Positions 8,596 through 19,363 of a DNA stretch of 64,000 bases are shown one piece after another. This stretch comes from Eremomyces bilateralis CBS 781.70 (lineage: Eukaryota > Ascomycota > Dothideomycetes > Eremomycetales > Eremomycetaceae), in NCBI RefSeq assembly GCF_010015585.1, contig NW_022985067.1:1748940-1812939 (forward strand), written 5' to 3'. The translations under genes were made by a program, and so were the position numbers. The first letter of the stretch is position 1. Every line of letters begins with the position of its first letter. A model generated the notes under the pieces. The model was not told the origin of the DNA and did not search any database. It saw nothing but the letters and a program-made list of their open reading frames with translations.

Positions 8596-9567
8596 CTAGA
8601 TCGGTGGCTCGAGCATCCTCCGAATATCTTGCTCGGGGACGAACTTATCGACTCCTTGATCCAGCTTGGACCACCACTCGAACAGCATCGACTGGCAGAT
8701 GAGCTTAAACCAAGGGGTGAACTTTAGCGACTCGTCCTCGAACATCGCCTTAAGCTCCTCCTGCGATACGTATTTTGCGTCTCGAACCTCGTTTGGATTG
8801 GCATCCACATCGACTTGACCGGTGGGTTTGATGAACAGGATATAGTCGACTGAGCGATTGTTAGATTCTTCCAATTCCGACACGAAAACTCAACGGGGAA
8901 AACCGTCACGTACTCTCATGCTCCCCCCATTTTCCATCGCTAGGAGCAACGTAGTGTATCCGGCTCAGAAAGTGGAATTGATCAAGCGGTACTTGTTGAC
9001 CTTTGATCCCCAGCTCCTGGTCGAGCTTTCTCTGCGCTGCTCGCTTCACGCCCATGACGGACGCATCTAATCCGACGCCCGTTTCTCCCGGAATTCCCAA
9101 CGGGTGCGAGCAGCAGGTATTGGTCCACATGTCTATCGATGTGTTAGTGGGGCGGGAATCCCCCTAGGTCCTCGCAAAACGAACCAGGGAACGTGATCTT
9201 CTCCGTCGCCCTCTGTTGTAGCAGTAGCCGGTTCTCGGAGTCGAAGAGGAATACTGAGAACGCTCGGTGGAGGAGTCCCTTGTTGATGTTCTGCATCAGA
9301 TGGCCTGGACGCTGGTCAGCATCCTTATTCTCCACCGTCCTGAACAAAGGGGGTTATACATGTCTTCTTGCTCCCATTCCCTACAGGTACATCATTCTCA
9401 TCGACCACAATGCACACCTCGTCCATCAAGCGGATCTGCTCGGCATCGTAGCCCGCCATTTCCGAATCGTTCGCGGCGGAGGCTCCAGGGGTACCGATCA
9501 CGGTGATCTCTGGGAAGAGACGGACAATGTTCTCAGCCGTGATGGCGGTAGTCGTTGATGTCGCCAT
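8596..9567 (-). CDS. IDI1: Isopentenyl-diphosphate delta-isomerase, type I
   Basis: Interconverts IPP and DMAPP, the starter and extender units of all isoprenoids. Four exons on the minus strand, 9567-9360, 9304-9185, 9132-8914 and 8849-8596, total 801 nt (266 residues). The splices restore conserved strings: [24 protein letters not shown] and GEHE|IDYILF. The catalytic Cys lies in TNTCCSHP (about residue 117) and the metal-binding Glu in WGEHE. This is the Nudix-fold domain and the full family length. The start is MATSTTT at 9567; a TATAAATA string lies at 9592-9599 just upstream. C-terminus [13 protein letters not shown]. It reads as a functional gene. It lies 5 kb from a terpene cyclase on the same strand; whether it is the only genomic copy or a pathway paralogue cannot be judged here. 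Confidence 0.95.
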
Positions 9568-10133
9568 GGCCGTAGATGAACAGAGGGACACTATTTATAT
9601 CTTCGAATGGGAGAGAGCAGACTCAATGGGATGATAGTGGACCGTATGAAGGGTAAGTGCCGTGTTGGGATTGTTCGAAGTTACTTATTTCGAGATCCAT
9701 TCGCAGTCACGTGCACTGTTGGTGCAATCAAGGGTCTAGATTTTCATCATGAAATCGCGACCTCATGTCAACATTTCCGCCCAGAAGGAGCACAGAAGTA
9801 ATTATAGAGTATTTGCATCCCTTTCCTTGGTCCTGATAACGACCACGTGCTTTCAGGATAATTCCAGCACTGTAGTACTGTACAGCATAGGTAGGCAATA
9901 AATTTCGCTCAGTGAATTTATGCAGTTTGGTATATCCTCAACCAAAGGGTGATGACGGATGAGAGTCATAATAACCACCAGAACATAATCCCTCTACATC
10001 GCTCGTAACAACCAGGCGCCGCTGCAGGGCCTTACTGATAGTGGAGTGGTATATAACAACAGCACGAGAACCGAAACCCCCACCCGGAAACCGAACGCCT
10101 TCCCGCTGCATCATTTATTTCCAATATGACAAA
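9568..10133. other. Intergenic between IDI1 and the rhodopsin-domain gene
   Basis: 566 bases. Holds the IDI1 promoter on the minus strand (TATAAATA at 9592-9599) and the 3' end of the next minus-strand gene. No coding sequence seen. Confidence 0.5.
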
Positions 10134-16314: not shown

Positions 16315-17508
16315 CTTTCACATAATAATATCTATGAGAAGGTATACAACCCCCAACAATCAGCGCTGCCAGTGCACTAGATATGTCCGCCAGACCTGGT
16401 CGTCACCACGGTCTCCTCCGTTTCATGGTTTAATTCGAGGTCTCGGGCTGATTCGCCACTTTGATACACATAGATCAGCACCTTGGAACCTGGCTCTGGG
16501 GTTCTCGGATAGAACCACATTCGGATCGGATAGGCGGGTCTGCCTTGGCTAACTCTCCGCAACTTGTACGCATACCAGGAATATTTCCGTTAGTCCATGG
16601 GTGCTGAGATATGTATCATCTGGGCGTTCCTTGGATTACCTGTTTTCGACAAGGTCCGAAGGGATGGTTTGGCGGTCCAAACCAAAGTTATGTTAGTTTA
16701 TCCTTAATACTGTTGCTATATTAATATCAATCGAGCTTTCGCTTAGTCTATCCAAGGTCTTCATGGACTCCATTGGTGTGGAAACAATGCTACAATGGTT
16801 CGGTTGGCTAGACTGCAATTACTAGCCATCGATTCGTCGAAGAGACGATGGCCAAAGAGGAAACGTCCTTCCGCATTTCTATAAAAGGACAAGGCATTAT
16901 ATTGTTAACCCAAGCTTGGAGAAGAACCATTGGTTGTTCAGTTTGTTGTTCAGTTTGTTGTAAGTTCTGACGTTGGATATTCGGACTCCGTACACAGCCA
17001 CTAACCGGATTAGGCGTGGAGCAGACATCACCAAGCCCTCCTATGCTCATGATTTCCTACCATTCAGACACATGTACGAAAAGGACATCCGTCCGTACCC
17101 GTTACTGAAATAATGAGATACAACTCCGGTTAGCATGAATTCGGGTTGCATCGTGTATCAGGCGGTTCTCGCTGACACCGCGGCTGAAGTCTCCTTGGCA
17201 GGCTGGTGAGGTGGCGGTCATAGACGTTCGACGCGACCAACTCCGACGAGATCGAATTCCGAAGAGCAGTAAAATGCTCAGGCTCAGGGACAAGGATTCG
17301 AGCCGAAACATGGATACCATATCAGACTTGATATTGTTCGGAGGTGCTGGACGGCAAGAGTTTATCTCATAGTCCTATCCTTAGGAACCGAGTTGTACAT
17401 ATCTCTGCTGTCAGGCCGGTGCAAAAGACCAAATTCCTATCGCCGTCAATATAATCATTTTTAGACAGACTTCATTACTAGTTTCTTTCATTCTCTACCT
17501 TAGTAGCC
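16315..17508. promoter_or_regulatory. Shared divergent promoter region of terpene cyclase and P450
   Basis: 1.2 kb between two divergent gene starts. It holds no convincing gene; a 61-codon minus frame at 16377-16562 is discussed under rejected items. A direct repeat GTTCAGTTTGTT occurs twice at about 16938-16963. Bidirectional control of the two pathway genes is an inference from layout. Confidence 0.5.
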
Positions 17509-19363
17509 ATGGCAGGATTTACTGCTGCGGCCTCTCCCGTCACAGTAGCAGCAGGTCTTGCTGTTCTTGGGATTGGATATCTGATCGGCCTGGTTATCTA
17601 CCGATTATACTTCCATCCGCTTGCTCGCTTCCCTGGGCCCAAGATCGTAGCCGCAACGTACTGGTATGAAGCATGTATCGATATGTTCAAAGGCATCCGC
17701 GGCCAATACTACCGGGAGGTGGAGAAGATGCACCAGAAATACGGACCAATCGTCCGCATCAACCCAGATGAGATCCACGTGAGTGACCCAGGCTGGTTCG
17801 AACTTCTGTATGCTGGCCAGCCTGCTCGAAGGGACAAATGGCCAGCCACGGCGATGATGCTCGGAACGACCCTTGGAACATTCGGGACCGTGGACCACTA
17901 CATGCATCGTAAGCGGAGGGCCGCCAACAGTGCCCTATACACGCTGCAGAACATCGCGTCATCTGAGCCCCTGATCCACAAGCATCTAGCTCGCCTGTGT
18001 GAGGTCCTCCGCTCGTCTAACGGCAAGGTCATCGAGCTTCGCCGGAGATTCATCGCATTCACGTCGGACTCCTTGGCTGACTTCGCATTTGGCGAGACGT
18101 TCGGCATCCAGGATGATGAAGACGCAGCCGAAAACTGCCATCAAACCTTCAATGCGTTGACGAGTGCGGCGCCGTTCATCAAGCAGTTTCCATGGTGCCA
18201 ATCGCTCGTGAAGCAGGTTCCGCTGCCAGTTGCGAAGCTGCTTGCTCCACACTTGTCAAAGGTCTTGGAGATGAGATTGGTAGTGAGCCCATTCGTACAC
18301 ACTGAGCCAACCGCTAACTTTCTGTGTGACAGCGCGTCCGCGATCAGGCGGCCAAGTTTATGGCTCACGAATATGCGGAGCTCGAAGAAAAGCACGAGCC
18401 CCGTCTAAACATCTTCCAAGCGATGCAGGACAGCCCGCTTCCCATACAAGAGAAGTCCATCGCGCGGATGGCAGACGTGGCGACGGAAGTGTTCTTCGCT
18501 GGATCCGGCCCGATGTCCCGTGCTCTTTCCACTGGCGTGTTCTTCTTGTTAAACAACGCGGACGCCCTTCAGCGTCTCAAAGAGGAACTCAACCAGGCAA
18601 TCCCAAATATTAACAATATCCCGCAAGGGAAAGCGCTGGAGAGTCTCCCATGGCTGGTATGTACCGATATCTAGTATTCGTCAATCTGTGGCTGGGTTGA
18701 CCTTCAAATAGAGTGCTGTTGTTAGAGAGACGTTCCGTATCTCGACGATCATCAGCTCGAGAATCCCGCTCGTTCCTCAAGAAGATTTGGTCTACCAAGA
18801 ATGGGTAATCCCAGCAGGAGTAAGTCGACACTGATTTAGTAATCCGATTATCTGGGCATCCGCTCCAAAGTTAGATTACCATGCGGCACCTAAACTAACC
18901 GAGAGCCAGACACCAATTGCCATGTCACAAGCCGCCATTCTCTTGGATCCCAACATCTTCCCAGAGCCTCGCGAGTTCAGGCCTGAGCGATGGTTGGCAG
19001 ACAATGAGGCTCAAAGCGGATCAGAAGGTCCTCTCCGCACCGACTTAGACAAGTACTTCGTGCCATTCTCGAAAGGAGGTAGGAAGTGCCAAGGGCAAGT
19101 GTAAGTGCCATATTCTTCCCCGTCTGTTCTGCGAAATGCCTCGCAACAATAAAAGAATCTTGTGGCTGATGTATAGCCTTAACAGCTTCGCAACAATGGA
19201 ACTCCGCGTCACGCTCGCTGTGGTTTTCCGCCGATTTGAGTTGGAGCTGTATGAGACAATTCGCGAGAGGGATGTTGATAACCAACGGGATTGCTTCCTT
19301 GGCGAATCCATGCCAGATAGTCCGGGTATTCGTGTCCGCGTACTGAAAGAATACGCGTACTGA
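17509..19363 (+). CDS. Cytochrome P450 monooxygenase
   Basis: Five exons, 17509-18279, 18333-18656, 18712-18819, 18910-19100 and 19177-19363, total 1581 nt (526 residues). An N-terminal membrane anchor (AGLAVLGIGYLIGLVIYRLY) is followed by the proline hinge FHPLARFPGPK. The K-helix ETFR, the FRPERW motif and the heme-binding loop FSKGGRKCQG (Cys ligand) are all present. The I-helix reads FFAGSGPMSRALST, which departs from the usual A-G-x-D/E-T-T and lacks the acidic residue and the standard oxygen-activating Thr. It is a microsomal oxidase of the fungal benzoate/trichothecene-type clans by overall look; the CYP family cannot be fixed without a search. Divergent from the terpene cyclase, so a hydrocarbon tailoring role is the natural guess. 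Confidence 0.93.

Follow-up and report, generated by a model that had tools for sequence, protein, structure and literature searches.

The stretch studied is a 64,000-nt window of the genome of Eremomyces bilateralis CBS 781.70 (GCF_010015585.1, contig NW_022985067.1), and all gene coordinates given here are positions within this window. Five contiguous genes span 10.8 kb of it, and their models, built with GT-AG introns only, contain 0 internal stops. The features are the following:

9567-8596, (-) strand: IDI1, 266 aa, 4 exons (9567-9360, 9304-9185, 9132-8914, 8849-8596)
11456-10134, (-) strand: Fung_rhodopsin protein, 368 aa, 5 exons (11456-11259, 11197-11093, 11041-10860, 10808-10519, 10465-10134)
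13361-14241, (+) strand: hemerythrin, 251 aa, 3 exons (13361-13429, 13504-13998, 14050-14241)
16302-14887, (-) strand: terpene cyclase, 357 aa, 6 exons (16302-16139, 16062-15731, 15660-15504, 15454-15365, 15303-15270, 15183-14887)
16303-17508, no strand: cyclase-P450 intergenic region, between both start codons, presumed bidirectional promoter
17509-19363, (+) strand: P450, 527 aa, 5 exons (17509-18282, 18333-18656, 18712-18819, 18910-19100, 19177-19363)

The original prediction had named these five kinds of gene at these places, and it was borne out, as the frames are open and all five Pfam profiles score above their cut-offs. As had also been claimed, the cyclase and the P450 diverge from one region of 1.2 kb (1,206 bp), and the hemerythrin gene is convergent to the cyclase gene, with 645 bp between them (14242-14886). 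The position of IDI1 and the seven-helix gene, described as upstream on the cyclase strand, had to be corrected: since the cyclase is read leftwards and both genes are on the same strand, they lie 3' of it, that is, downstream.

The cyclase belongs to the Terpene_syn_C_2 family (PF19086; 104.1 bits against a Pfam cut-off of 23.7, 1e-29), and the two motifs first noticed in it, WDDEIDE and NDLLSLKKE, were found in the open frame (DDEIDE at residue 101, NDLLSLKKE at residue 250), together with RMGT at residue 204 and RYGM at residue 340, which we take to be the Arg sensor and the RY pair. Its best solved relative in the PDB is presilphiperfolan-8-beta-ol synthase (8h6q, 84.1 bits), a distant one with 78 of 278 aligned columns identical (28%), followed by Terpene cyclase 6 (7w5f, 66.7 bits), which aligns almost end to end (query 6-353) and has the WDDEID stretch in common with the cyclase. 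FPP is presumably the substrate of both enzymes. An excerpt of PMC8403587 gives fungal source organisms and sesquiterpene products for the two. From these sequence comparisons, we infer that the cyclase is a class I sesquiterpene cyclase using FPP. A cyclase using another substrate, as a monoterpene maker or with a longer substrate, appears very improbable: motifs do not reveal the substrate and the closest solved relative is distant, but both top-scoring solved relatives make sesquiterpenes and no prenyl synthase lies inside the 64-kb window, where none of the three polyprenyl synthase loci of the genome is located. Compared with bacterial and archaeal genomes, the cyclase gave 10 pattern matches and no relative.

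Exon-by-exon searches of the 26.6-Mb genome found no second PF19086 gene: the profile search picked up a single exon, and the five pieces recovered by the protein search belong to the same gene as that exon. The cyclase looks like the only member of this family in the genome, within the limits of searches that scored the best candidates only and that could overlook a cyclase of diverged sequence and short exons.

The P450 (PF00067; 188.2 bits against a Pfam cut-off of 22.8, 3.1e-55) keeps the core motifs ExxR (ETFR) at 372, the PERF-like FRPERW at 425 and the heme loop FSKGGRKCQG at 455. Its I-helix reads AGSGPMS at residue 314 and is without the acid-alcohol pair; this stretch aligned opposite FFAGTETTS of CYP2E1 (3e4e), and also against paralogues. 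The pair is usual in monooxygenases, and membership of PF00067 does not need it. A census of the I-helix covered 59 of the 63 P450 loci in the genome, 50 of them readable and 9 unreadable. At least one of acid and alcohol is missing, by strict columns, in 12 of the 50 readable loci, this P450 included, and it is the only one of the 50 in which Thr/Ser is missing at both alcohol columns. The altered I-helix suggests that this P450 may not oxygenate in the usual way. According to an excerpt of a review (PMC9112060), interrupting the acid-alcohol pair can steer P450s to epoxidation.

The loss of both acid and alcohol could also mean that catalysis by the P450 is altered or that the gene is decaying, in which case the locus would in practice yield the bare cyclase product. 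We consider this improbable, as the frame is open across five exons, the protein retains the ExxR, PERF-like and heme-Cys motifs, which is unexpected for an old pseudogene, and the other P450s lacking part of the motif show that such departures occur elsewhere in the genome. A further proposal, which we hold to be quite improbable, is that the P450 works on the terpene without the usual proton relay, either epoxidising it by a peroxide-driven or Compound-0-type reaction or isomerising or dehydrating it with no net oxygenation; the hemerythrin might then be its partner for oxygen or peroxide. A natural terpene P450 in which G-P-M replaces acid and alcohol would provide a test of how far P450 chemistry reaches without a proton relay.

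The 16303-17508 region is presumed to act as a bidirectional promoter common to the cyclase and the P450. Within it, an inverted pair, CTAACCGGA/TCCGGTTAG, is found at 17001-17009 and 17125-17133, and both window matches of the 8-mer CTAACCGG are inside this region; shuffling the window 100 times gave at least two matches in 34 cases, and the CTAACCGGA pair is thus not claimed as a regulatory motif. Structured RNAs were not found between 8000 and 21000 (Rfam, gathering scores). Beyond the P450 lie a RING protein and then a NUBPL-type P-loop NTPase, both housekeeping in look, and the ORFs scanned around the pair included neither a transcription factor nor a transporter; 10 ORFs taken from the gaps between the genes contained no Pfam family.

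Coding GC of the five genes is 0.530-0.553, compared with 0.506-0.578 in the neighbours taken, and a DNA search that skipped simple repeats and very common words found no match elsewhere in the genome for 11457-13360 and 14242-17508. A recent mobile insertion of the pair is thus unsupported. An old transfer of the pair may be compatible with this native-looking composition.

IDI1 scores above the Pfam cut-off for NUDIX (67.2 bits), exceeds the cut-off of the NCBIfam equivalog TIGR02150 (187.7 against 105.8) and matches human IDI1 (2dho) with 249.8 bits. Its active-site stretches are NTCCSHP at 114 and WGEHE at 178, within which we assume the catalytic Cys and Glu of type 1 IPP isomerase to lie. 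An exon-by-exon search of the 26.6-Mb genome found no second type 1 isomerase; the sole copy found must therefore serve general metabolism and be expressed for sterol synthesis irrespective of the cluster. IDI1 was judged to be a housekeeping isomerase and a neighbour of the cyclase-P450 pair. It lies 5.3 kb from the cyclase, with two genes in between; IDI1 and the cyclase are each the sole copy found, and the probability of such closeness by chance is about 0.04% for one pair and about 0.3% over about eight upper-pathway genes, for a pair picked post hoc. This proximity is suggestive; chance may account for it, or selection may maintain it.

The seven-helix protein is a member of the Fung_rhodopsin family (PF20684; 197.7 bits against a Pfam cut-off of 27), and a hydropathy scan gave eleven overlapping windows that merged into seven segments. 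It has no PDB relatives up to E 10. Retinal-binding rhodopsins need a lysine in helix 7, and the last segment (IEACVGLICACFPALWPLI, 270-288) has none. A retinal opsin was therefore rejected, and "rhodopsin" is here the label of a family and no evidence of a retinal pigment.

In a genome-wide shift test, 12 of the 63 P450 loci have a Fung_rhodopsin locus no more than 10 kb away, about five times the expected 2.48, the loci being uncurated merged hits (same-strand hits less than 1,200 bp apart; 102 to 63 for P450, 88 to 55 for Fung_rhodopsin), the distances, as in the hemerythrin test, being those between hit midpoints, and the contig sizes being partly interpolated (summing to 26.95 Mb, the true total being 26.63 Mb). 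Kinases, unlike Fung_rhodopsin genes, are not enriched near P450s. Two of the P450/Fung_rhodopsin pairs, C6 and C11, look duplicated (P450 regions 80.8% over 1,822 bp). With the C11 P450 and the present locus left out, 6 of 61 P450s still have a Fung_rhodopsin locus inside 5 kb, a count reached in 27 of 20000 shifts, and for 10 kb the figures are 10 of 61 P450s and 3 of 20000 shifts. The fact that the two families lie close together across the genome points to a place in accessory metabolism for these seven-helix proteins, which have been little studied, and this family-level association makes the seven-helix gene a plausible extra member here, which may be accessory or sensor-like.

The hemerythrin (HHE, PF01814; 49.6 bits against a Pfam cut-off of 25.3) carries the His/Glu motifs HSHN (37), HHHHE (77), QHNAFH (107) and HLREE (149), which we take to be diiron-type ligand positions, and it has two weak PDB relatives (best E 0.07). 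By gene ends it is 3.3 kb from the P450. By midpoint distances, the association of the eight hemerythrin matches in the genome with P450s is weak, none being within 5 kb and two, one of them the present locus, within 10 kb (0.36 expected; 215 of 5000 shifts). We regard the hemerythrin as a probable bystander of the pair, a label that is less confident because one published fungal cluster, in an excerpt of PMC9890505, lists a hemerythrin-like protein. PMC8346489 concerns bacterial encapsulins and has no relevance to fungi.

The original prediction had proposed that all five genes act together. In a true, co-regulated five-gene cluster, IDI1 would boost DMAPP, the seven-helix protein would sense or transport, and the hemerythrin would handle oxygen or iron for the P450. 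The contiguity within 10.8 kb, the short distance between the cyclase and IDI1, each the only one found, and the enrichment of Fung_rhodopsin near P450s agree with this, as do membrane proteins in published clusters (PTH11-like in PMC4617483, SAT4 in PMC4117958, both from excerpts) and the hemerythrin-like dmxR11 tabled beside a P450 entry (PMC9890505, excerpt). We nevertheless find it rather unlikely, as IDI1, with no second copy found, must be expressed regardless, the hemerythrin association is weak, and the same set was not found in the literature searched. What stands of the proposal is the cyclase-P450 pair, by its layout and gene kinds, with the seven-helix protein as a plausible extra.

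The divergent cyclase-P450 pair is the best supported unit of the locus, by layout and gene kinds only. With modest confidence, we favor a two-gene sesquiterpenoid module beside a housekeeping IDI1, with the seven-helix protein as a possible accessory and the hemerythrin as a probable bystander. The open gene models, the metal motifs of the cyclase with RMGT and RYGM, the fungal origin of its two nearest solved relatives, the failure to find a second PF19086 gene or IDI1, the location of all three polyprenyl synthase loci outside the window, the housekeeping look of the P450-side neighbors and the precedent of bra, a published minimal cyclase-P450 cluster (PMC8403587, excerpt), argue for it; the proximity of IDI1 to the cyclase, the unusual I-helix, the missing transcription factor or transporter among the ORFs scanned and the hemerythrin-like protein of the one published cluster (PMC9890505, excerpt) count against it.

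If the pair acts together, as its layout suggests, the cyclase and the P450 would be transcribed apart from their common 1.2-kb region. A polyprenyl synthase encoded elsewhere in the genome would supply FPP. The cyclase would ionise it at the metal site of the DDEIDE and NDLLSLKKE motifs and convert it to a cyclic hydrocarbon or alcohol, and the P450 would modify this product; the use of FPP and the order of reactions are predictions. IDI1 would feed all isoprenoids, the product of the pair included. If functional, the pair would be the one route to cyclised sesquiterpenes of the PF19086 family found in this analysis, and deleting a single gene would therefore reveal the role of this route.

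The set of cyclase, P450, IDI1, hemerythrin and seven-helix protein was not found in the literature searched for such sets, and parts of it can be compared with known systems. Bot2 of Botrytis cinerea, the presilphiperfolan-8-beta-ol synthase of 8h6q, is of the class I family and has acidic and NSE-type motifs as in our cyclase, from which it differs at the 28% identity given above, a comparison that covered the enzymes alone. We take 7w5f to be TaTC6, trichobrasilenol synthase; its score, below that of 8h6q, is too weak to call orthology with TaTC6/BraA. SAT4 and PTH11-like proteins are, we assume, members of PF20684.

In the excerpts seen, the satratoxin SC1 cluster includes the putative integral membrane protein SAT4, in which no conserved domain was found (PMC4117958), and syntenic diterpene synthase clusters include a PTH11-like membrane protein (PMC4617483), so that both, like the present locus, have a putative integral membrane protein among terpenoid-pathway genes. 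SC1 differs in being PKS-based with an acetyltransferase, and the diterpene synthase clusters in having GGPPS and transporter genes, none of which was seen here. The dmx cluster, tabled in an excerpt of a review of emodin-family products (PMC9890505), resembles the locus in combining a hemerythrin-like domain protein (dmxR11) with a P450 (dmxL3), which does not imply that the hemerythrin-like proteins are related; dmx serves a polyketide pathway and has genes for PKS, SDR and acetyltransferase, with no terpene cyclase among the genes given there. A further parallel to the pair is the brasilane bra cluster, which an excerpt of PMC8403587 describes as minimal, with a cyclase, a P450 and one further enzyme, in Hypoxylaceae and Trichoderma, similar clusters being reported also in Talaromyces. 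This third core gene encodes a GlcNAc transferase, whereas no glycosyltransferase was seen here among the ORFs scanned over 8.5-24.5 kb (the five proteins, 20 flanking ORFs and 10 gap ORFs, smaller exons being outside the scan). What bra and the present locus have in common is the core of a cyclase and a P450.

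Splice-aware models recovered five open-frame genes at 8596-19363 of the window (C1:1748940-1812939, C1 being contig NW_022985067.1 of a 26.6 Mb genome in 62 contigs), each with a Pfam label exceeding the cut-off:

IDI1, minus strand: NUDIX; type 1 isopentenyl-diphosphate isomerase by NCBIfam
Seven-helix gene, minus strand: Fung_rhodopsin
Hemerythrin gene, plus strand: Hemerythrin
Terpene cyclase, minus strand: Terpene_syn_C_2
P450, plus strand: p450

Splice choice is uncertain at the third intron acceptor of the cyclase, the first intron of IDI1 and the C-terminal end of the hemerythrin. 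The models bear out the divergence of cyclase and P450 from one region, with 1,206 bp between them, and the convergent hemerythrin; IDI1 and the seven-helix gene, claimed to lie upstream of the cyclase, are both downstream on the minus strand. The original prediction described the locus well at the sequence level and somewhat over-read it at the pathway level. On sequence grounds, we lean modestly towards cyclase and P450 forming a standard two-gene putative sesquiterpenoid module.

The cyclase carries DDEIDE and NDLLSLKKE, with RMGT upstream and RYGM at the C-terminal side. Its best solved relative is presilphiperfolan-8-beta-ol synthase (8h6q; 84.1 bits, with identity at 78 of 278 aligned columns), followed by Terpene cyclase 6 (7w5f; 66.7 bits, aligned over nearly full length); by alignment, these are near enough to assign fold and general chemistry and too distant to name the product. 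As 7w5f has about 40 residues more ahead of the first aligned position, an additional 5' exon is possible. Exon-by-exon protein and family searches found no second PF19086-type cyclase genome-wide, and no close relatives turned up when bacterial and archaeal genomes were scanned.

A Pfam family was assigned to 9 of the 20 flanking ORFs scanned (11 had none), and to none of ten further gap ORFs at 11.4-20 kb. The ORFs of at least about 75 codons scanned at 8.5-24.5 kb showed neither a glycosyltransferase nor a transcription factor, transporter or prenyl synthase, and the tested intergenic DNA has no second genomic match. The surroundings include:

Flanking families: RING, NUBPL P-loop NTPase, F-box, AA9, TauD, GMC oxidoreductase, Na/H exchanger, Adaptin_N, alpha-amylase
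4233-6197, plus strand: single 654-codon open frame, no Pfam family at E 0.01
12840-12865: short tandem array of a 10-bp unit, GGGGTCATCC, ahead of the hemerythrin
16933-16961: short tandem array of a 12-bp unit, GTTGTTCAGTTT, inside the cyclase/P450 intergenic region
30316-31113, minus strand: AA9 lytic polysaccharide monooxygenase (141.3 bits), with the open frame of an F-box gene about 1.2 kb away

The P450 retains an open frame, ExxR, a PERF-like motif and the heme loop, and its oxygen-binding I-helix reads AGSGPMS, compared with A(G/A)x(D/E)(T/S)T at seven other aligned P450 loci. This stretch was readable in 50 of the 63 genomic P450 loci; by strict columns, acid and alcohol are both present in 38, alcohol without acid in 7, acid without alcohol in 2 and neither in 3. 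Since Thr is shifted one column on in the two other loci with neither and in both acid-only loci, this P450 is the sole one of the 50 without Thr or Ser at either alcohol column. The motif by itself is no proof of altered chemistry, because 12 of the 50 loci deviate somehow. A review (PMC9112060) describes a disrupted acid-alcohol pair as blocking the usual step from Compound 0 to Compound I and favouring a route through Fe(O2H2) that serves epoxidation. The I-helix is the one feature of the locus that might merit testing by a specialist. Elsewhere, the P450 L073 (G000:C4:136449-137707) has an unusual I-helix, IGSVTAPN, without the acid residue, and a Fung_rhodopsin neighbour at 4.5 kb.

That all five genes act as one co-regulated cluster is a less likely reading. 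In the established mevalonate pathway, sterols and prenylation depend on the IPP isomerase step. A protein search with IDI1 gave four matches, all its own exons, and found no second copy in the genome, so IDI1 is not purely a cluster-specific supply gene; that the sole IDI1 recovered lies close to the sole cyclase recovered is suggestive, though this pairing was chosen post hoc. Three polyprenyl synthase loci were found, on C23, C16 and C4. The hemerythrin, with ligand-type His and Glu motifs, is the top-scoring of eight genomic PF01814 matches (six exceed the cut-off). By hit midpoints, none of the eight has a P450 within 5 kb, two have one within 10 kb, the present locus being one of these two (0.36 expected; 215/5000 shifts), and one of the eight has a Fung_rhodopsin locus within 5 kb (771/5000 shifts). 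The hemerythrin is probably a bystander; we hold this less confidently, and rate the five-gene cluster very slightly higher, because dmxR11, a protein with a hemerythrin-like domain, appears in a review table (PMC9890505) as part of a polyketide cluster from a fungus.

As the Fung_rhodopsin family has about 55 loci in the genome, a single nearby member tells little alone. P450 loci nonetheless lie near the family in excess: by midpoint distances, 7/63 within 5 kb against 1.27 expected (reached in 10 of 20000 shifts) and 12/63 within 10 kb against 2.48, about five-fold (0 of 20000 shifts). With the present locus and one P450 of a duplicate pair left out, 6/61 and 10/61 remain. Protein kinases, taken as control, lie near Fung_rhodopsin in 3/101 cases at both distances (2.05 and 4.04 expected), and P450 loci near kinases number 0/63 and 1/63 (2.31 and 4.49 expected), which suggests that P450s are placed away from kinases; the excess may therefore partly reflect both families residing in accessory regions.

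Fung_rhodopsin/P450 pairs with hit gaps below 5 kb occur on C18, C53, C11, C17, C36, C6, C16 and C4. Those at G000:C6:589589-593233 and G000:C11:214631-218059 share gene order and similar spacing, and their P450 regions (parts L080, L045) show 80.8% identity across 1,822 bp. The P450 genes L037 (C7) and L079 (C53, an 18.8-kb contig) are 88.6% identical over 2,211 bp, and the latter has a Fung_rhodopsin match 1.8 kb off.

The seven-helix gene at the cyclase locus has two published parallels. The satratoxin SC1 cluster includes the integral membrane protein SAT4 (PMC4117958), and syntenic clusters around diterpene synthases include a PTH11-like protein (PMC4617483).
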